Origin: a virus
Virus record (IMG/VR): IMGVR_UViG_3300006925_000135
Location: 1-25,382 of that record
Reading direction: 5' to 3' (one strand)
Length of the DNA stretch: 25,382 nt
The notes under the pieces were generated by a model, which saw only the letters and a list, made by a program, of their open reading frames with translations, had not been told where the DNA came from and did not search any database. Position 1 is the stretch's first letter. Each line of letters starts with the position of its first letter. This document shows positions 12,953 to 25,382 of this stretch, piece after piece. A program made the position numbers and the translations under genes.

Positions 12953-14398
12953 ATGGCAAATGTAGTACCCTCGTTTGGGTCAATTAAACCTAGTCAGAAA
13001 CAACAAGTTCTGTCTACAAATTATCTGCAATTTACAGATAAAGCTGGCGACGATTTTTCAGATTTCGCAGCACAATATCTTCCTGAGATCTACGAACAAG
13101 AAGTAGAGCGATATGGAAACCGAACTCTTTCTGGATTTCTACGTATGGTAGGAGCAGAAATGCCTATGACTTCTGATCAAGTAATTTGGTCAGAACAAAA
13201 TAGATTGCACATTGCATATAATAACGTAACTAAAGCTAGCGCAACAACTTTAACTTTTGTACTTAATGCAACTGCTGGCGCTAACTTCGTTGATAATGCA
13301 ATTTCTATCAACCAAACTATTGTAGTATTGAATCCTACTACTGGAGCTGAAGTAAAAGCTTTAGTAACCAATAGTGTAGATACATCTGCTACTTTAGCAA
13401 CAATTACTGTAGCTACATATACTGGAGCTGATCTTGCTGCTACGTTTGGTGCCGGAGCCCCTACAAATCTTAAAATATTTGTATATGGTTCTGAATATAG
13501 AAAAGGGACTGGAGATGCTGACATTAGAAGCGTAACCCCATCTTTCACTCAATTTAACAATTCACCAATTATTATTAAAGAAAAGTATGTGGTCAATGGA
13601 TCAGATATGGCTCAGATTGGTTGGGTTGAAGTTGCTACTGAGGATGGAACATCTGGATACCTATGGTATTTAAAAGCTGAGTCTGAAACTCGTTTGAGAT
13701 TTGAGGATTATCTTGAAATGTCTATGGTTGAAGGTGAAAAAGCTGCTGCAGGTTCTGGAGTTGCTGGTATTGCTGCTGACTATGGCGGAACTGAAGGTCT
13801 TTTTGCTGCTATCAATGCTAGAGGTAATGTACTAAATAACTTTAGTGCTGCTGCTGGTCTTGGTGAATTTGACAGCATTCTTAAAAATCTTGATACTCAA
13901 GGTGCTATTGAAGAGAACATGCTTTTCTTAAATAGAAAAACTTCTTTGGATTTTGATGATATGCTAGGTGCTATTTCTTCCGGTATTGGAGGAGGTACTG
14001 CTTTTGGTCTATTTGAAAACTCTGAAGAAATGGCTTTGAATCTTGGTTTCTCAGGATTTAGAAGAGGTTCTTATGACTTTTATAAAACTGACTGGAAATA
14101 TCTTAATGACGCTTCAACTAGAGGTGGAGTAGCTGTTTCAGCAATTGATGGAGTTCTTATTCCTGCTGGTACATCAACTGTATACGATCAAATCTTAGGT
14201 TCTAATATTCGTAGACCTTTCTTACATGTTCGTTACAGAGCTTCACAAACTGAAGATAGAAGAATGAAATCCTGGATTACTGGATCTGCTGGAGGTGCTT
14301 ATACTTCTGACATTGACTCTATGGATGTTCACTTCTTGTCTGAAAGATGTTTATGTGTACAAGGTGCTAACAATTTCGTATTGTTTACTGCATCATAA
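12953..14398 (+). CDS. Major capsid protein, HK97-fold crAss-like type, 481 aa
   Basis: Builds the icosahedral shell. The call comes from position after the scaffold candidate, length, and pattern: a short N-arm with QFTDKAGDDFSDFAAQYLPEI, GNRTLSGFLRMVGAEMPM, a beta-rich, Thr/Ala/Val-rich insertion at about 85-185 that would form the I-domain or a surface domain, a spine helix around ETRLRFEDYLEMSMVEGEKAA, and the C-terminal block with GSNIRRPFLHVRYRASQTEDRRM and DSMDVHFLSERCLCVQGANN. Codons are strongly T-ending (GCT, GGT, CTT), a high-expression pattern, and unlike the A-ending preference of neighbours. A strong terminator follows at 14415. There is no sign of a protease cleavage domain at the N-terminus. 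Confidence 0.88.
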   Translation: MANVVPSFGSIKPSQKQQVLSTNYLQFTDKAGDDFSDFAAQYLPEIYEQEVERYGNRTLSGFLRMVGAEMPMTSDQVIWSEQNRLHIAYNNVTKASATTLTFVLNATAGANFVDNAISINQTIVVLNPTTGAEVKALVTNSVDTSATLATITVATYTGADLAATFGAGAPTNLKIFVYGSEYRKGTGDADIRSVTPSFTQFNNSPIIIKEKYVVNGSDMAQIGWVEVATEDGTSGYLWYLKAESETRLRFEDYLEMSMVEGEKAAAGSGVAGIAADYGGTEGLFAAINARGNVLNNFSAAAGLGEFDSILKNLDTQGAIEENMLFLNRKTSLDFDDMLGAISSGIGGGTAFGLFENSEEMALNLGFSGFRRGSYDFYKTDWKYLNDASTRGGVAVSAIDGVLIPAGTSTVYDQILGSNIRRPFLHVRYRASQTEDRRMKSWITGSAGGAYTSDIDSMDVHFLSERCLCVQGANNFVLFTAS

Positions 14399-14414: not shown

Positions 14415-14445
14415 TACCCTCGTTGTATTAACGGGGGTAGTTTTT
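14415..14445 (+). terminator. Rho-independent terminator after the capsid gene
   Basis: Positions 14415-14424 pair with 14430-14439 in a 10-bp stem with one T-G wobble (14420 with 14434) and a 5-nt loop (14425-14429). A G and then five T follow (14441-14445). It begins 17 nt after the capsid stop. It should cut most transcripts here, so genes upstream including capsid form a strongly expressed unit, and the neck genes get read-through or their own promoter in the A/T-rich 14446-14474 stretch. Confidence 0.85.
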
Positions 14446-14474: not shown

Positions 14475-15320
14475 ATGGCTAAAAAAGCTACTCAAGCAGT
14501 AAAAGATATTGAGGTTGCACCTCAAGTAATTGAAGCAAAAGAAGTTGCAAAACCTGCAGCTAAAGTATCAACATCCAAAAAACCACAATGGGAAATTAAA
14601 GACAGAACATATTTACTAAATGGTCTTAAAACTCCATTAACATATACTATAGCATCTCGTCATACGAGCCGTTATCCTTTATTATGGTTTGATAAAGAAA
14701 AAAATGAACAAAGAGAATTAAGATATGCAACTAATCAAAATTCGCCATTAGTTGATGAACAATCGGGTGAAGCAACATTAGGGCATATTGTTTTTAGGGA
14801 TGGCACATTAACCGTAACTAAGGAAAAACAAAATTTGCAAAGATTATTATCTCTTTATCATCCAATGAAAGGAGTAAAATATAACGAATTTAATCCTGTA
14901 GAAGAAGCTGTAGACGATTTAGAAACTATTGAATATATAATTGAGGCATTAAATGTAGCAAGAGATATGGATATAGATCAAGCTGAGGCTATTTTAAGAG
15001 TTGAGGTTGGTTCTAAGGTATCTGACATGAGTTCTAAAGAAATTAAAAGAGATCTTTTAATATTTGCTAAAGAAAACGCTCAACTATTCTTAGAATTGGC
15101 TAATGACGAAAATGTGCAATTAAGAAATGTAGCTATTAATGCTACGGAGTTAGGTCTTTTAAATTTATCACAAGATCAAAGAACTTTTGCATGGGCTAAA
15201 ACAGGAAGGAAAATAATGAATGTTCCTTTTGACGAAAACCCATATTCCGCTATGGCTGCATTCTTTAAAACAGATGAAGGTATAGAAATTTACAAATCTA
15301 TAGAGAAAAAACTTCTATAA
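14475..15320 (+). CDS. Hypothetical head/neck-associated protein, 281 aa
   Basis: No named family was recognised. Residues 1-38 are a low-complexity Ala/Lys/Val tail. Residues about 39-120 are beta-rich (WEIKDRTYLLNG, TPLTYTIASRHTSRYPLLWFD, ELRYATNQNSP, LGHIVFRDGTLTV). Residues 120-225 are helical (LETIEYIIEALNVARDMDIDQ, a KEIKRDLLIFAKENAQLFLEL stretch). The end has VPFDENPYSAMAAFFKTDEG, then YKSIEKKLL. Its place, directly after the capsid protein and before the connector candidates, is where crAss-like and marine relatives carry an unassigned virion gene. A neck, head-completion or minor capsid role is likely but inferred. A second hairpin lies after the gene. Confidence 0.72.
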   Translation: MAKKATQAVKDIEVAPQVIEAKEVAKPAAKVSTSKKPQWEIKDRTYLLNGLKTPLTYTIASRHTSRYPLLWFDKEKNEQRELRYATNQNSPLVDEQSGEATLGHIVFRDGTLTVTKEKQNLQRLLSLYHPMKGVKYNEFNPVEEAVDDLETIEYIIEALNVARDMDIDQAEAILRVEVGSKVSDMSSKEIKRDLLIFAKENAQLFLELANDENVQLRNVAINATELGLLNLSQDQRTFAWAKTGRKIMNVPFDENPYSAMAAFFKTDEGIEIYKSIEKKLL

Positions 15321-15343
15321 CGTGTAATATTTATAATATGTAG

Positions 15344-15361
15344 AGCCGTCATTTGGCGGCT
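15344..15361 (+). terminator. Hairpin after the 281-aa gene, weak intrinsic terminator
   Basis: Positions 15344-15350 (AGCCGTC) pair with 15355-15361 in a 7-bp stem containing one T-G wobble and an ATTT loop. It is followed by TTACTATT rather than a clean T run, so termination is probably partial. It could also be an mRNA-end-stabilising hairpin. It lies 24 nt after the stop and 27 nt before the next start. Confidence 0.55.
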
Positions 15362-17383: not shown

Positions 17384-20300
17384 ATGGCAGAAGTTAAAAA
17401 TGCTTTTATAAAGTCTAAAATGAATTTAGATCTTGATGCACGTTTAGTGCCTCAAGGCGAGTATAGACAAGGCTTTAATATACAAGTTAGTAAATCCGAG
17501 GGCGATGACGTAGGGGCATTAGAAAATGTATTAGGTAATGCTTTGTTGCCGCAAGGCAATTTTCAAGCTTTAAATTCAGGCGCAACAGGTCTTCAAGCTA
17601 TAGGCCATGTTGTAAATCCTGCAAATAATATGGTATACATTTTTTTAACCAACAATACAGGAACTGCGTATAATTCTGGAGCGGATAATTTTATTTATGC
17701 TTATGATACTTTAAATCAAACTGCTATTAAATTAGTTGAAGGACTTTTTTTAAATTTTTCTACACAAAATCCTATATATGGCATTAACATAGTTGAAAAT
17801 TTATTGTTTTGGACAGACAATAGGAATCAACCAAGAAAAATAAATATAAACAAAACTTTAGGATATTATACTACTGAAGATCATATTTCAGTAGCTAAAT
17901 TTGCACCCTATGAAGCTATAAATTTGTACCAAGAAAGCTCTATAGCGGGCCAATATGAAACTACAATGAAAGATGTAGTAAGCCTTGCGGTGCCTAAAAT
18001 TAATGCTGCAGACGCAAACCCGCCAACCAATCCTTATTTACAAACAGACACTGGTGGAAATCCAAACTACGCTGGAGACCCGGATTATTTAGAAGATAAA
18101 TTTGTAAGATTTAGCTATAGATTTAAATTTGAAGACAATGAGTATTCGGCTTTAGCTCCTTTTACTCAAGAATGTTTTATACCCAAACAAGACGGATATT
18201 TTTATGCTGAGGATGAAGATGCAGCGTTTAGAAGCACTGTAGTTAGTTTTATGGAAAACAAAGTAAATGAAATTACTTTAAATATTCCTTTACCCAAAGC
18301 TATAGATGGCTCAGCTATTACCGGGGCTACATTAAATAATATTTTAAAAGTTACAGAAATTGATATTATTTATAAAGAATCAGACGCGCAAGCCGTACAA
18401 GTAGTAGACACTTTATCAGTAACCAATCAACTCTTCCAAACAACTCATACCGGCTCTACTATAAGTTATACTTATCAAAGTTTAAAGCCTTATAAAACAT
18501 TACCCGAGGCGGATTTAATTAGGGTATATGATAAAGTGCCTGTTAAAGCCTTTTCTCAAGAAATATCGGGAAATAGAGTTATTTATGGTAATTTTCAAGA
18601 TAAACATACCCCGCTTTTCCAAGATCTCAATGGCCAGCTTACACCCCAATTGGATTATGAAGTAGGTGCTTTTGATAAATCTAATTTTAATTTAGCGGCC
18701 GGCACTACTAGTAAAGTAGAGTACCCCAATAGCACTTTAAAACAAAATAGAAATTATCAAGTTGGCATTATTGTTTCAGATAGATATGGAAGATCATCTA
18801 CAGTATTATTATCTAAACTTTTAGAAAAAGCTACATTAGATCCGTCTGGAAATTTTGCCGCTTCAACTCATTATCATCCTTATAGAAACGACGCTGATAC
18901 TCCTGTAGCTTCCTGGCCCGGTGATGCTTTAAAAATATTATTTAATAGCCCTATAACTACCCCATCTCCAATTCCTGCTGGGTCTGGTATACCGGGGCTT
19001 TATATTGGTTCAGGTAATAATTACAATCCATTAGGTTGGTATAGTTATAAAGTCGTGGTTAAACAATTCGAGCAAGATTATTATAACGTTTATTTACCTG
19101 GTATACTTAACGGGCCGCCCGCTGGAGTTACAGATTTAAATGACACTGAAAACGAGGTAGGGTTTATTACTTTAATAAATGATAATATAAATAAAGTTCC
19201 TAGAGACTTAAGTGAAGTAGGCCCCGAACAAAAACAATTTAGAAGTTCAGTACAATTATTTGGAAGAGTTACTCCTAATTTTGTGTCTGCAACTTTTCCT
19301 TCTTATAATGAACAATTTTTTCCTAGTATTCAGTCGAATACCGTAATAACCATTGGGGAAGTTGCTGACGTGTTAGGAGAAGACGTTACAGGCCCAAGTG
19401 CAACAACAATAACAAATTTATATGACTCTAAATCTAATCCTTTAATCGCTAGAATATCACAAATAGATTCTTTACCTATTGGAAGTGCTGCGAAAGCCGG
19501 CGCTTATCCTTTTCAACTCGCAGTATTTGAAACAGAGCCTACTGAATCAAGGTTGGATATATATTATGAAACTTCTACTAGCGGACTAATATCAGAATTA
19601 AATACAGCTATAGAAACTACAACTAATGTTGTTACCGGCGCCACTGGAAATACTACAGTAGATTTTAATGAAAATCAAAGCCATGCAAATGGTAATGTAG
19701 ATATCTTGCCGTCAACTGCGGGAGCGGGATGGGCTCCTGTAGATATTACTTCTTTAGGCGAAGCTGTAAACCAAGATTTACCAGCCAATCGATTAACCGC
19801 GTCTATAGCAAGTGTTACAAGCTTAAGTGATGAAGGGGATAAATCTACCTTTTTTACCGTTATTAACGTACCATCTAATGGGCAACCTTATAATAATCAA
19901 GACCAAAACACTTGGTATAGATATAAAATACAAAGTACTAAAGATTTTTATTATAGCTTAGAGGCTGGAACAGAAAAAGTATATAATATAACAGTTAACT
20001 TTACAACCGCGGCTGGAGAATCTGCTGGTTCTGCGGGTTTTGAAGTGCCTTTAGCAAATACTTCACCTATTTTTAAAACATACACAATACCAAATCAACC
20101 GACTGTAAATATTGACCCAGTCCCTAGCAATCTTACTTTGCAACATACAGCTGGGGCAACAGGGATATTAGCTACATTTACTGGCGTAAACGGAACGGCT
20201 GACACAAGTCTAAATACAAATGATTTAAGTTGGTCTATTACATCTCCCGCTAATCAAACTATATTTAGTATAAACGCCGATGGCGAATTATCAACAACAG

Positions 20301-21766
20301 AAGATTTAACGGGCCCATACCCTATAACTATTACATTAACAGATGCGGGTGGCCCAACTGACGCTACTAATTTGCAGCTTACTGTTTTATTTGGTAATGA
20401 AGCTCTTAATACAGAATTTGGGTCCACTTCTAAATATGGGTTTGGTATTGCTAATTCAGGTGGAGAGTCTGGGGCTTTGTATTTTGTAGGAGGAACAAAT
20501 GCTCTCATCAATGCGGCCGGGTCTACCCCACTTCCCGGGGTGTCATCTATAAGTAATGACGATATAAGAGCCCCTTATAGTGGTTTGCAATTAAGCAATA
20601 ATGTAAACGAAGTAACTGTAAGTGGCGGTGGTGAAACTAAAGTTCTCGATTCTGTGCCAGATTGCGCAAGTTTCTACATGCTTAATAAAAACCAAAACGC
20701 AATGGCTATCCAGTCTTCAGCTAATGCTACAACATTAGACCAATCTCAAGCTGGATTGCGCCAAGGAACAGCATTTATAGGTGTAGAAATTAATTTTAAT
20801 CAATTAAACGTAGGGCTTGAAGGATTAACAACTGATGATTATCCTTTGCTTATGTATCCTATCTATTTACAATATAGACCATTTGGGGGAGGTAATAATT
20901 GGGTTACAGCAACAGATATTGAAGGCAAGCCTACTAATTTTGGAGGCTCTCAAATAAATAGAGACGCATTTGACTCTGGAGGCAGTGTTGGGGGACATGG
21001 AATAATAAATAAAAGAGACTTGCCCTATTATTTTCAGTCTACAAGAGTTAATAGTTCTAGTTTTACAACTGATATTTTAAATACAGCATGCTTAGAAGCA
21101 AACACACAGGCAAAAGCGCTTAATGGTGAAACTCAAAATGCTATTGCACGAAAAACTTTTGTAATAGGTAAATCACCTTATGCCGGGGTTAGCGATAAAT
21201 TTGGCGATTATAGATTAATTGTGCGTTATCCTTGGGGCATTAAAAGTTCAAACGGGTCAGATAATCCTATAGTTGTAGGATACGGATCTAGCGAATGTCC
21301 GGCAGATGGATTTAATATAATAAGCGGCCTAGTAAATGCTAATGTATTTTTTGGTGACTTTTACTATCCAGCAGCTTATGGTGGAAGCAATATATATTCT
21401 TACCAGTATAGAGTTAGCAATAATGCACAAAATACAGCGCAGCTTGCATCAACCGGAAGTGCAAACCAAACTCTGTTTGCCAGAGAATGGCATATGAAAT
21501 ATGTTACAAAATTTTATATAGATGCTGATCTTACACAACCATGGGTCCCTGATAATGCCGGGTGGTTTCAATATGTTGCTGGGTCAAACTCAACTGACAT
21601 TAATGCTGTATACGGAACAGACTATTCTAATACGAGTTCAACCGGGAACCCTGGATTAACTCAAAATATACATAGAAGATGGGTGGCATATTTTGACAGC
21701 ACAGGATTAAAAAGTTTAGCTAATTCAAATTATCCATCATTAGCAATGCAATATCAACCTTGGTAA
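17384..21766 (+). CDS. Large tail-hub ('stabilization'/muzzle) protein, 1460 aa, with cadherin-like domain
   Basis: The N-terminus carries a pattern I recognise from the crAss-like stabilization protein and its marine relatives: KSKMNLDLDARLVPQGEY (residues 11-27), then IQVSKSEGDDVGALENVLGN (about 34-53). It is followed by beta-propeller-like repeats with IYAYD, LFWTDNRNQPRKININ and FVRFSYRFKFEDNEYSALAPF. In crAss-like virions this protein forms the lower tail part below the rings. Residues about 906-1003 read as a cadherin or bacterial-Ig-like domain (FSINADGELSTTEDL, ITITLTDAGGPTDATN), probably surface exposed. The remaining 450 residues are beta-rich with several Cys. No enzyme motif is seen. 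It is longer than expected, while the usual C-terminal part seems to be in the next gene. Confidence 0.82.
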   Translation: MAEVKNAFIKSKMNLDLDARLVPQGEYRQGFNIQVSKSEGDDVGALENVLGNALLPQGNFQALNSGATGLQAIGHVVNPANNMVYIFLTNNTGTAYNSGADNFIYAYDTLNQTAIKLVEGLFLNFSTQNPIYGINIVENLLFWTDNRNQPRKININKTLGYYTTEDHISVAKFAPYEAINLYQESSIAGQYETTMKDVVSLAVPKINAADANPPTNPYLQTDTGGNPNYAGDPDYLEDKFVRFSYRFKFEDNEYSALAPFTQECFIPKQDGYFYAEDEDAAFRSTVVSFMENKVNEITLNIPLPKAIDGSAITGATLNNILKVTEIDIIYKESDAQAVQVVDTLSVTNQLFQTTHTGSTISYTYQSLKPYKTLPEADLIRVYDKVPVKAFSQEISGNRVIYGNFQDKHTPLFQDLNGQLTPQLDYEVGAFDKSNFNLAAGTTSKVEYPNSTLKQNRNYQVGIIVSDRYGRSSTVLLSKLLEKATLDPSGNFAASTHYHPYRNDADTPVASWPGDALKILFNSPITTPSPIPAGSGIPGLYIGSGNNYNPLGWYSYKVVVKQFEQDYYNVYLPGILNGPPAGVTDLNDTENEVGFITLINDNINKVPRDLSEVGPEQKQFRSSVQLFGRVTPNFVSATFPSYNEQFFPSIQSNTVITIGEVADVLGEDVTGPSATTITNLYDSKSNPLIARISQIDSLPIGSAAKAGAYPFQLAVFETEPTESRLDIYYETSTSGLISELNTAIETTTNVVTGATGNTTVDFNENQSHANGNVDILPSTAGAGWAPVDITSLGEAVNQDLPANRLTASIASVTSLSDEGDKSTFFTVINVPSNGQPYNNQDQNTWYRYKIQSTKDFYYSLEAGTEKVYNITVNFTTAAGESAGSAGFEVPLANTSPIFKTYTIPNQPTVNIDPVPSNLTLQHTAGATGILATFTGVNGTADTSLNTNDLSWSITSPANQTIFSINADGELSTTEDLTGPYPITITLTDAGGPTDATNLQLTVLFGNEALNTEFGSTSKYGFGIANSGGESGALYFVGGTNALINAAGSTPLPGVSSISNDDIRAPYSGLQLSNNVNEVTVSGGGETKVLDSVPDCASFYMLNKNQNAMAIQSSANATTLDQSQAGLRQGTAFIGVEINFNQLNVGLEGLTTDDYPLLMYPIYLQYRPFGGGNNWVTATDIEGKPTNFGGSQINRDAFDSGGSVGGHGIINKRDLPYYFQSTRVNSSSFTTDILNTACLEANTQAKALNGETQNAIARKTFVIGKSPYAGVSDKFGDYRLIVRYPWGIKSSNGSDNPIVVGYGSSECPADGFNIISGLVNANVFFGDFYYPAAYGGSNIYSYQYRVSNNAQNTAQLASTGSANQTLFAREWHMKYVTKFYIDADLTQPWVPDNAGWFQYVAGSNSTDINAVYGTDYSNTSSTGNPGLTQNIHRRWVAYFDSTGLKSLANSNYPSLAMQYQPW

Positions 21767-21795: not shown

Positions 21796-23313
21796 ATGCC
21801 AGCAACTATAGAAGTAAAATATTTTAATAGCTTTGTTTTAAAGAAAGTTTTAAATTCTTCGTCTGTTCCGGTTTGGAATGGATCATTTGGTATACCTTAC
21901 GGTTTGCAAGGTTATGATCGAGGTAATGTAGAAACATCTAATGCTGCAATTATTGCTAAAAATTGGACAATTGAAGAATCAAGAATTAGGGGAGGATATA
22001 ATAATACATCGGTTAGTTTCGGCCCTAGGGCTTATTTGGTAGAAGAAGAGCCTAATGCGACCTTTAGAACTAACTCATTAATATATTCAGGAATATTTAA
22101 TTCAAGTACAGGAATTAATGATACTAATGTATTTAGTGTTGGAACAGATATTACTAAAAGTTTAAACCCGGCTTACGGATCAATACAAAAATTATACGCT
22201 CAAGATTATTATTTAACTATATTTCAAGAGGACAAAGTAAGTAGAGCACCTATTAATAAAAACATTATCTATTCAGCTGAAGGAAATCCTACAGTAACAA
22301 CTAGTAATATAGTTATAGGAGATCCACAAGCTTATGCAGGTAATTTTGGTATTAGTAGAAATCCTGAAAGTCATGCTGTTTACGGTTTTAGGCAATACTT
22401 TGTAGACAAAGATAGGAATGCGGTGCTAAGATTATCTAATAACGGTTTAGAAGAAATACAAAGATATGGTATGTATGACTTTTTTAGGGATAAGCTAAGT
22501 GAGTTAGATCAAGGCAAACCTTTTGTTGCTGGTAAAGCTGTGGGGATGTGGGATATTTATAATAAACAATATGTGGTGTCGCTTCAGACTGCTAATGCTT
22601 CTTTCACAACAGATTCTTTAGGAAATGTAGCCACTAATTCATATTTTACATTATCATTTGACGATGATATAAATGGATGGAATAGCTTTTTTAATTATAA
22701 ACCTGGATTAGGTTTTAGTTTAAAAAATTATTTTTATACTGTAAATAACGGCTCAGCATCATCAACAGCAGCGGCTTTATATCAACACAACTCTGAAGAT
22801 CCAACTATTAAAAGATCAAATTTTTACGGAGTAAATAATGATTCTAGTATAACCTTTATATTTAACCCTAGGCCTAGTATGTCAAAAGTGTTTAAAACAA
22901 TAAATTACGAAGGGAGCAATGGATGGGAAGTTAATAGCATTAATTCTGATTTTACAGGAATTGGTACTGTTGATACTGATTTTTTAAACTTTGCTATTAC
23001 TAACACACAAGATACAACAGCTTTAATATATAGTTATAATCAAGGGGCTTACGATAATTATGGCAACCAATTTCCCGCAAGACTTACACCGCCCTTAAAT
23101 AGAGCAGGTTTTACTAGAAAAGAAAATAAATATATGGCTAATATAATTAATAATAGTGCGGTTGCTCCCGGCGAAGTGAAGTTTGGCAATCAAATGAGCG
23201 GTATTAAAGGGTACTTTAGTACAGTTACCATGTCTACTGATACTGTTACTGATTATGGCGGCCCAAAAGAATTATTTGCTGTATCTTCGGAATACGCGGA
23301 ATCATCTTATTAA
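21796..23313 (+). CDS. Tail-hub C-terminal-like protein, 505 aa
   Basis: Beta-rich, Asn/Ser/Tyr-rich virion protein. The segment around residues 140-240 is the most telling: YGSIQKLYAQDYYLTIFQED, then KVSRAPINKNIIYSAEGNP, then NFGISRNPESHAVYGFRQYF (183-202) and DKDRNAVLRLSNNG, then GMYDFFRDKL. From memory this block usually sits in the same polypeptide as the N-terminal pattern of the preceding protein in related phages. Here the two are separate genes, 29 nt apart, which suggests a split hub protein. It may work as a beta-propeller at the tail tip and assemble with its partner. No membrane, signal or enzyme motif is seen. Confidence 0.75.
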   Translation: MPATIEVKYFNSFVLKKVLNSSSVPVWNGSFGIPYGLQGYDRGNVETSNAAIIAKNWTIEESRIRGGYNNTSVSFGPRAYLVEEEPNATFRTNSLIYSGIFNSSTGINDTNVFSVGTDITKSLNPAYGSIQKLYAQDYYLTIFQEDKVSRAPINKNIIYSAEGNPTVTTSNIVIGDPQAYAGNFGISRNPESHAVYGFRQYFVDKDRNAVLRLSNNGLEEIQRYGMYDFFRDKLSELDQGKPFVAGKAVGMWDIYNKQYVVSLQTANASFTTDSLGNVATNSYFTLSFDDDINGWNSFFNYKPGLGFSLKNYFYTVNNGSASSTAAALYQHNSEDPTIKRSNFYGVNNDSSITFIFNPRPSMSKVFKTINYEGSNGWEVNSINSDFTGIGTVDTDFLNFAITNTQDTTALIYSYNQGAYDNYGNQFPARLTPPLNRAGFTRKENKYMANIINNSAVAPGEVKFGNQMSGIKGYFSTVTMSTDTVTDYGGPKELFAVSSEYAESSY

Positions 23314-23322
23314 TAATAACAA

Positions 23323-24138
23323 ATGGAACAAGTAATTGAAATATTAAAGCTCGCATGGTATGGCCATGAAATCGAAGGATTAATAAAACTGGAACCTATT
23401 AGTGCTGGGGCCGCTTTAGCAATAAGTGGCGGAATTCAACTTATAGGTAGCCTTTTTGGCGCTAGCAGCGCTAATAAAAGAGCTAATAGAGCAGCGAGAG
23501 AAAAAAGAAGATTAGAGGGAGAGCTAAAAGAATTAGAAAATAGCAGACAACCAATCATAAATCCTTATGCTGGTATGCAAGACTTTTCTAGTATAGCTGA
23601 AGACTTAAGTTCTAAAATGACTAATCCTTTTGACAGTTTAGGCGTAGCAACGCAGGCTGCTGAAATACAAATGGAACAAACAGATATTGCTTTAGCTAAT
23701 ACTTTAGATACATTAAGAGCTACAGGGGCAAGTGCAGGAGGCGCAACCGCGCTAGCTCAAGCAGCTTTGGCTAGTAAAAAAGGTGTTGCTGCAAATATAG
23801 AACAACAAGAAGCTAAAAATGAACAATTAAGAGCGCAGGGAGAAGCTACTTTAGAAGCTAATAGAATAGCAGAAGAGCGAAGGCTTCAAAGTGTCAAACT
23901 TGGACAAGCTGAAAAATTAGAGCAAGGAAGAACTCAAGGCGCCGCATTTGTTTACGGGGAAAAAGAAAGAAGAAAAACGGAACAACTTAATAGAAAACAA
24001 GCTCAAATAACCGGGCAGGCACAAGCGCAAGCCCAGGCGAGGGCAGATGCCGCGGCTATAACAGGGGCTGGAATATCAGGAATAGCTGATACTACATCTG
24101 CTTATTTACAAAAAACATATAAACCGGGGGAAGACTAG
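23323..24138 (+). CDS. Internal/ejection-type virion protein, 271 aa in the zero frame
   Basis: One hydrophobic segment near the start (ISAGAALAISGGIQLIGSLFG, residues 26-46) is followed by a long charged and Ala/Gln/Arg/Glu-rich helical body (NKRANRAAREKRRLEGELKE, about 51-70; QAQAQAQARADAAAI near the end), with Gly/Ala-rich stretches such as ATGASAGGATALAQAALASK. This layout matches proteins packed in the head and ejected to make a channel, as in T7 and P22 internal proteins and crAss cargo proteins. The zero frame ends at TAG 24136-24138. A -1 shift at the G run 24126-24130 would add 29 residues and end at TAA 24216-24218, overlapping the next ATG. The longer form would be 298 aa. Confidence 0.78.
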   Translation: MEQVIEILKLAWYGHEIEGLIKLEPISAGAALAISGGIQLIGSLFGASSANKRANRAAREKRRLEGELKELENSRQPIINPYAGMQDFSSIAEDLSSKMTNPFDSLGVATQAAEIQMEQTDIALANTLDTLRATGASAGGATALAQAALASKKGVAANIEQQEAKNEQLRAQGEATLEANRIAEERRLQSVKLGQAEKLEQGRTQGAAFVYGEKERRKTEQLNRKQAQITGQAQAQAQARADAAAITGAGISGIADTTSAYLQKTYKPGED

Positions 24139-24153
24139 CGCCGGGGACGGCGC
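24126..24153 (+). promoter_or_regulatory. Candidate programmed -1 frameshift signal
   Basis: A run of five G (24126-24130) lies in the zero-frame codons CCG GGG GAA. A GGG tRNA slipped back by one base still pairs perfectly. Seven bases later a hairpin begins: 24138-24143 (GCGCCG) pairs fully with 24148-24153 around GGGA, a GNRA tetraloop. A zero-frame TAG overlaps the first stem base. Slip tract, spacer and stem agree with known -1 stimulators, although the heptamer is not of the classic X-XXY-YYZ form. The alternative is a miscounted G in the assembly. Confidence 0.5.
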
Positions 24154-24218
24154 AATTTAACGAAAAAGCATTGTTTGATCAAATAAAAACAGGAGATAAT
24201 ATAATAGCAAATTTATAA
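24129..24218 (+). other. -1 frame C-terminal extension of the internal virion protein (29 codons plus stop)
   Basis: This frame is open from 24123 to TAA at 24216-24218 and has no ATG, so it is not an independent gene with an ordinary start. Read after the shift it gives GRLAPGTAQFNEKALFDQ and ends in KTGDNIIANL. It looks like coding protein: balanced charges and an amphipathic helix. Its TAA overlaps the ATG at 24218 by one base, the same TAATG junction seen at 2974, 4906 and 5061. In the other reading the interval 24139-24217 would be a noncoding gap, untypical for this packed stretch. Confidence 0.45.
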
Positions 24219-25382
24219 TGGGAGCATATGAAAATCCAATAACGGTTGTAGATAATCAATCAGGTCAAATATGGGCAAATACAATATCAAATGTAGCTAA
24301 AGCCACAACTGATTATATTGATTTTACACGTCAAAAAGATGATGAGCTAGCTAAAAAAATACAAGATCAATTAGATTGGGCAGCTGAATATGCTTCTAAA
24401 AATCAAGAGCAAGTTTATGCTAATTTAGCTAAACTAGGCGCTGATTCAATATATAGTAAAGAAGCTGATGAAGTTTTAAATTTAGTTACTGAAAATAGAA
24501 TAGCTATGCAAAACGCCTCTACTAAAGAAGAATTAAAAATAGCACAAGAAGGATTTGGCAAAGCCCAGAAAAGATTGCAACAATTATATTCTGTAATTGA
24601 AATGGATGAAGAATCTAAGGTATTTTACGGGGAAGAATTTGATCCCGCTACAGCGGGTACGCAAGGGGGTATGTCTAAAAGTAAACCCGGTACAGCTGAT
24701 TGGGTTGCTGCACAAAATATAAACAACGGCTTTGCTAAAGGGCAAAAAGAAGTTTATTGGGATGCAGAAATAGGTGGTTATAGAATAAGATTTTCAGGAG
24801 AAAATATTGAGGGAGTTATTGATAAAGATGCTCGCTTGTTGTTCGGATATGATCCCGGGAAAGTTCCTGGTATTGATTCTATGATATATGGCACTTATCA
24901 AAAAGCAGGATATTTAGACAAAAACAATCAACTTACTGACAGCGCAATGTCTAATTATAAATTTACCAAGTTATCTGATAATGGTAAATATGAAACATTA
25001 TACACTGCTACAGCAGCTAATAGAATAGCTCAGGCCACTACATCGCAATTTGAAGCTCAGGCAAGATCATTTTTTACTGTTCCAGAAGATGCTGAAGATG
25101 TTTGGGCAATTATAGGTAAAGAAAGTAATAAGCAATTTAGCGCCTCAGAATTATTACAACAAGGAAGCGAAATGCAAACAGAATTTGTAAAAGCTTATGC
25201 TGAGTATGCTTCTAAATTAATACCTAATTATAAAGAAAACAATACCTATCAAACTAAAGCTGTTAGTAGCAAAGATGGTAAAGGCGGTTCAGGCGAAGCT
25301 AAAGCATTAGCCAACGCTGAAGCTTTTGTAGTACAGTTTTCTGAAAACTTAGATAGCTTTGGAATGGCTAGGAATAAAGATG
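24218..25382 (+). CDS. Virion protein, partial (first 388 codons, cut by window end)
   Basis: The reading frame starts at ATG 24218 and stays open to the end of the window, so the C-terminus is missing. No family is recognised. The N-terminal 140 residues are helical and charged (a YIDFTRQKDDELAKKIQDQL helix, then QEGFGKAQKRLQQLYS). A beta-like part follows, with KEVYWDAEIGGYRIRFSGEN and ARLLFGYDPGKVPG, then again helical segments with many Ala, Glu and Lys. The position after an ejection-type protein suggests another internal or cargo protein, and in crAss-like phages long proteins of this kind follow the hub genes. No catalytic motif could be seen in the visible part. Confidence 0.75.
   Translation, partial: MGAYENPITVVDNQSGQIWANTISNVAKATTDYIDFTRQKDDELAKKIQDQLDWAAEYASKNQEQVYANLAKLGADSIYSKEADEVLNLVTENRIAMQNASTKEELKIAQEGFGKAQKRLQQLYSVIEMDEESKVFYGEEFDPATAGTQGGMSKSKPGTADWVAAQNINNGFAKGQKEVYWDAEIGGYRIRFSGENIEGVIDKDARLLFGYDPGKVPGIDSMIYGTYQKAGYLDKNNQLTDSAMSNYKFTKLSDNGKYETLYTATAANRIAQATTSQFEAQARSFFTVPEDAEDVWAIIGKESNKQFSASELLQQGSEMQTEFVKAYAEYASKLIPNYKENNTYQTKAVSSKDGKGGSGEAKALANAEAFVVQFSENLDSFGMARNKD

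Follow-up and report, generated by a model that had tools for sequence, protein, structure and literature searches.

The slip heptamer of the lambda gpG/gpGT system is GGGAAAG. In lambda and in the mycobacteriophage versions with GGGGGAA, ribosomes slip by -1 close to the 3′ end of a morphogenesis gene and yield a minor form extended at the C-terminus (PMC5009743, PMC10885494). About a thousand annotated actinophage frameshifts have the slip motif GGGGGAA, which PRFect reports as the sole sequence of its 'fivetwo' motif (about a thousand motifs in training data from SEA-PHAGES); the explanation given there is that the second tRNA re-pairs on GGA through a G-U pair (PMC10885494). A corynephage frameshift with GGGGGAA is likewise annotated (PMC5506516). 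Bacterial -1 sites have spacers of 5-9 nt, G_GGA_AAG is highly shift-prone in E. coli, and for tail and Ig-like extensions the direction of frameshifting differs from phage to phage (PMC5009743). Frameshifts in phage morphogenesis are known mainly from tail chaperones, capsid or tail proteins.

Among podoviruses, T7/T3 gene 10A/10B and the capsid gene of phiEco32-like phages such as Privateer are structural genes with a -1 C-terminal extension, and the Privateer major capsid frameshift uses GGGAAAG (PMC7881722). For genes 39/40 of Alteromonas virus vB_AspP-H4/4, a slippery sequence with -1 frameshift involving an 'internal virion protein' is claimed in one line; an endolysin there overlaps a separate internal virion protein, and no conservation or structure is given (PMC5658483). 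T7 gp14 and crAss001 gp45-gp46 are helical ejected proteins whose N-terminal stretch is hydrophobic and rich in glycine; their genes come after that of the muzzle, and no frameshift is described for them in the literature examined. The crAss001 muzzle is gp44, and ejection is expected for the cargo proteins gp45 and gp46 (PMC10172136).

Here we analysed a viral DNA stretch of 25,382 nucleotides (the window; IMG/VR record IMGVR_UViG_3300006925_000135). Most probably, an internal-virion (DNA-ejection type) gene of a marine podovirus infecting Bacteroidota ends here in a programmed -1 ribosomal frameshift, a reading based on sequence comparison and folding. The features of the locus are the following.

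21796-23313, plus strand: upstream gene, 505 aa, whose product has the C-terminal domain of crAss-type muzzles (PF25729; score 51.6 bits, cut-off 27)
23323-24138, plus strand: zero-frame ORF, 271 aa, likely internal-virion/ejection-type protein from homologues and fold match, C-terminal end ...KTYKPGED*
24120-24122, plus strand: TAA closing the -1 frame upstream
24126-24132, plus strand: putative slip site GGGGGAA (G_GGG_GAA), the 'fivetwo' motif (PMC10885494)
24133-24137, plus strand: 5-nt spacer between slip site and stem
24136-24138, plus strand: zero-frame stop TAG
24138-24153, plus strand: hairpin GCGCCG-GGGA-CGGCGC, -11.8 kcal/mol, putative stimulator (folding and shuffles)
24132-24218, plus strand: 28-codon tail in the -1 frame, RLAPGTAQFNEKALFDQIKTGDNIIANL, followed by TAA, resembling the -1 tail of homologue L064
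24218-25382, plus strand: next gene, open at the window end, whose ATG overlaps the -1 frame TAA (TAATG)

The zero frame at the gene end reads AAA CCG GGG GAA GAC TAG (24121-24138), with the G5 run at 24126-24130 inside the heptamer. The -1 frame is closed by the TAA at 24120-24122 and then open until the TAA at 24216-24218, so any -1 slip must come after 24122. The last base of this second TAA is the first base of the next ATG (24218-24220), and further TAATG junctions are present at 2974, 4906 and 5061, the three already counted in the preliminary description. The stem 24138-24143 pairs with 24148-24153 (6 bp, all GC) around the loop GGGA (24144-24147), and the zero-frame TAG falls between the heptamer and the loop. 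All these elements lie where the preliminary description had placed them; its spacing of 7 nt after the G run is the same fact as the 5-nt spacer after GGGGGAA. Its product sizes are also right, 271 aa without the shift and 270 + 28 = 298 aa with it. The hairpin is the sole structure when 50 nt are folded as RNA (-13.3 kcal/mol; z -2.2 against dinucleotide shuffles). With its 5-nt spacer it lies within the 5-9 nt downstream at which a structured stimulator is expected. An Rfam search gave no match.

At G_GGG_GAA both tRNAs can re-pair in the right phase, the second through a G-U pair. The heptamer departs from the strict form X_XXY_YYZ, which 25 relatives satisfy, and a non-canonical heptamer had been named as a main doubt. 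This doubt shrinks, since GGGGGAA is the 'fivetwo' motif (PMC10885494) and relatives use GGGAAAN at this place. Counting both strands, the window has a single copy of the motif, at 24126, and this, together with the hairpin and its energies against shuffles, makes the arrangement more than a chance one. Spacer and slip sites agree with bacterial practice (PMC5009743). Two other origins of a tail were considered. Readthrough of the TAG was rejected, since the zero frame stays open for no more than about 15 further codons (RRGRRNLTKKHCLIK) that resemble none of the tails, and separate initiation in the tail frame is unlikely, as it lacks ATG and offers TTG only.

The other doubt was a homopolymer indel. 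An assembly or sequencing error, with the gene truly in one frame, would find some footing in the location of the G5 tract in a metagenome contig. Nevertheless, two contigs from other metagenomes (L002 and L005; homologues carry L numbers here) show 6 SNPs and no gaps against the window over 5,060 bp, and 2 differences between themselves in that stretch, and both contain the exact 31-base pattern spanning slip site and hairpin. A shared G miscount seems unlikely because three separately assembled contigs with differences elsewhere have an identical G5, TAG and hairpin. Relatives with GGGAAA, moreover, are split in the same way without long homopolymers. We consider such an error extremely improbable.

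Homologues were gathered by protein searches of viral contigs and genome bins and collapsed by identical 3′ ends to 218 sequences. The signal is present in 27 of the 218 distinct homologues, the window included, and this fraction of about one in eight is a biased frequency, since seeds of the searches were partly signal-bearing members. Twenty-one of the 26 others have GGGAAAN (L025, L034, L035, L044, L064, L076, L085, L089, L095, L100, L115, L116, L127, L152, L233, L243, L284, L323, L337, L432 and L446), four have AAAAAA[GC] (L053, L074, L097 and L131), and one has GGGGAAG (L033); 25 of these heptamers are canonical. Between the end of the heptamer and the zero-frame stop lie 0-6 nt, and the -1 frame is open for a tail that measures 15-49 codons in the 24 relatives counted automatically; in L074 the contig ends within the tail. 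Because signals of this kind are found in roughly one of every eight distinct relatives, the production of two protein versions from one gene is very likely real recoding, as judged from these comparisons.

Hairpins follow the same pattern. At spacers of 4-6 nt, a hairpin of -3 kcal/mol or lower was found at 20 of the 27 signal sites versus none of the 191 other members, which were scored at the matching distance from their own stop. Seven signal members are without a simple hairpin at the expected spacing. Mean hairpin energy over the 27 sites at spacers 4-6 was -5.24, against -0.29 +/- 0.19 in shuffles, and along the distance from the heptamer the energy is strongest at 5-6 nt and close to zero over most of the remaining range. 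Stem sequences vary among members, thus the structure is conserved and not the bases. Strong hairpins are also present in the window at 14415-14417, 15340-15344 and 19717. Those at 14415 and 15342 come directly after the likely capsid gene, whose stop is at 14398, and after the next gene, whose stop is at 15320, and are probably terminators; the one at 19717 is inside the 1460-aa gene.

The heptamers keep a strict codon phase. In the gene bodies of the homologues GGGAAA was found in slip phase at 2 of 33,630 codon positions, near the stop it was absent in both other phases, and 771 other long ORFs of the same loci all lack it in this phase close to the stop. In the first set, all in-phase GGGAAA at 30 nt or less from the stop were accompanied by a long -1 tail, except in L176, where it is located further upstream. 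AAAAAA-type heptamers were found in 28 of the 771 control ORFs, 6 of them with an open -1 tail, and were treated cautiously when alone because these AT-rich genomes carry them in control ORFs too. A rival explanation is transcriptional slippage, in which RNA polymerase instead of the ribosome would alter the G count at the G5 tract with help of the hairpin; stem-loop-aided transcriptional slippage is known (a reference listed in PMC5009743), and L053 has a long A run. Nonetheless, most members use GGGAAAN, a heptamer whose runs do not exceed three bases, a spacer of 5-6 nt is the geometry of ribosomes, and tRNA re-pairing accounts for the absence of off-phase GGGAAA near the stop. Transcriptional slippage is thus very unlikely.

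The -1 reading is further supported by homology among the tails: apart from two marginal hits, they match across loci solely as -1 tails, as in-frame tails or in the +1 frame of L099/L188. Matches of one -1 tail to another were found for L115-L233, L085-L089, L034-L044 and window-L064, the last being modest (E 0.006-0.008). The -1 tail of L053 matches the in-frame tail of L049 (E 6e-10), that of L064 the in-frame tail of L020 (E 0.0014), and that of L116 the +1 frame of L099/L188 (E 3e-6); the tail of L152 gave two marginal, uninterpreted matches. In eight tail pairs, substitutions per codon position of the -1 frame were 48/38/82, with pooled pN of 0.23 versus pS of 0.54 (pN/pS approximately 0.43), which indicates purifying selection on the pooled tails. 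The window-L064 pair alone has a pN/pS of 0.83 and so does not demonstrate selection on the window's own tail; the -1 product appears conserved and selected in the family, and for the window's tail the support is modest. The expectation that homologues share a related tail held for L064 (-1 frame) and L020 (in frame) and failed for the nearest homologue, L003/L004, which is without tail.

Such losses, together with the in-frame tails of L049 and L020 and the non-strict heptamer, would also fit a decayed remnant, in which a once in-frame tail was cut off by an indel or stop and the -1 frame now yields nothing. A remnant, though, would not set a known slip motif, unique in the window, 5 nt ahead of a strong hairpin, and would not reappear in 26 further members whose sequences differ; three population variants also retain the site. 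We regard decay as unlikely, and the preliminary proposal of a -1 frameshift is supported by the recognised motif, the hairpin and the recurrence in relatives. L049 and L053 have near-identical genes with the same tail, which is in frame in L049, whereas in L053 a long A run precedes it and it lies in the -1 frame; this difference is either a natural indel or an A-run sequencing artefact.

On a FastTree phylogeny the trait requires 22 changes, at least 14 of them forced by well supported branches, and shuffled labels require 25.8. The frameshift trait is scattered across the tree, close to shuffled labels. Close relatives that differ in the trait include window versus L003 and L064 versus L043. 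L003, the nearest relative of the window, is approximately 90% identical over the tree columns, and has a short unrelated stretch in place of the 125 bases 24092-24216. The 3′ end of the gene, by these comparisons, is a spot of turnover. In L042, L099 and L188 an identical GCC TTT GGG TAA C (stop of L099 at 3236) precedes a tail that lies in the +1 frame, a candidate +1 slip at the stop; the +1 tail of L099/L188, STVSTLTPQGYSF, is the one that matches L116.

The preliminary description called the product an ejection-type protein, and the gene position, homology to structural proteins of cultured phages and the best viral fold match fit this. PF25729 shows that the window possesses a Crassvirales-type tail feature, the muzzle C-terminal domain, and the 271-aa gene, directly after the muzzle gene, is in the position of ejected proteins. 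Terminase, capsid and muzzle have relatives in Flavobacterium elemo phages, Cellulophaga phi38:1-type phages and their relatives, and genome-bin homologues of the 271-aa protein are mostly from Bacteroidota. In a five-sequence comparison, the family profile matches phi38:1 gp099 ('structural protein') and the positional equivalents in Gundel_1 and Panino. No slip signal was found in these equivalents of phi38:1, Gundel_1 and Panino, whose genes end in frame, and the collection of cultured phages that was searched yielded no member with the signal. The predicted structure is almost all helix (pLDDT 80, pTM 0.52), with a glycine-rich hydrophobic N-terminal stretch. Among viral folds it comes closest to an 'Internal virion protein' (E 2.9e-5, TM 0.44-0.48), and a few family members match the DNA ejection group phrog_598. 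Foldseek of the model against PDB gave no significant match, PHROGs, Pfam and PDB sequence searches with the 271-aa protein gave nothing decisive, and tblastn of the window and L035 proteins against cultured phages gave no match, probably because of low-complexity filtering and distance. An internal virion or ejection-type protein is likely.

Two neighbours, 17384-21766 and 21796-23313, match different parts of one group (phrog_14478), as if a muzzle/structural protein were split in two. Genes for GroEL-like (375-1928) and GroES-like (1912-2172) proteins adjoin in the window and are likewise annotated in MW202828.1 and elemoE.

Compared with lambda gpG/gpGT, the gene is a different one, the gene order is of podovirus type and no tape measure was seen in the window; the gene follows the muzzle gene and does not lie between major tail and tape-measure genes. 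The extension is a 15-49 codon tail rather than a T domain, with the slip 0-6 nt from the stop. The T7/T3 and Privateer frameshifts are in the major capsid gene, whereas this one is in another gene, downstream of the muzzle gene, and the gene at 12953-14398 (phrog_13704, virion structural protein), the likely capsid gene, lacks a heptamer near its stop. No account of frameshifting in this gene family was found in the literature searched, outside of which most subscription papers lie, the nearest being that of vB_AspP-H4/4 (PMC5658483). The mechanism is known, and the gene and the family-wide pattern appear new.

According to the proposed mechanism, most ribosomes would terminate at the TAG, giving the 271-aa form. 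A ribosome positioned on GGG GAA would be held by the GC hairpin 5 nt downstream, and both tRNAs would slip back one base, tRNA-Gly onto GGG and tRNA-Glu onto GGA with a G-U pair, so that a minority would make the 298-aa form with the 28-residue tail. The sequences themselves show the slip site, the hairpin and the open -1 tail, their recurrence among relatives and selection on the pooled tails; we infer that slipping takes place in cells at some rate, that both forms may be in the virion and that the tail may tune assembly or ejection; the ratio of the forms may matter for virion assembly, as suggested in the preliminary description.

Standard gene callers easily miss the signal, and the tails are probably absent from annotations. 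More broadly, with about an even chance of being right, the locus may exemplify a widespread recoding switch in the ejection apparatus of Bacteroidota podoviruses, which would fix the ratio of tailed to tail-less protein, with a tail that is exchangeable (-1, +1 in L042, L099 and L188, in frame, or dropped). If true, the finding would add an ejected internal protein and a large group of mostly uncultured marine phages to the known cases, with more than two dozen natural variants, and why phages make two forms would become a testable question.
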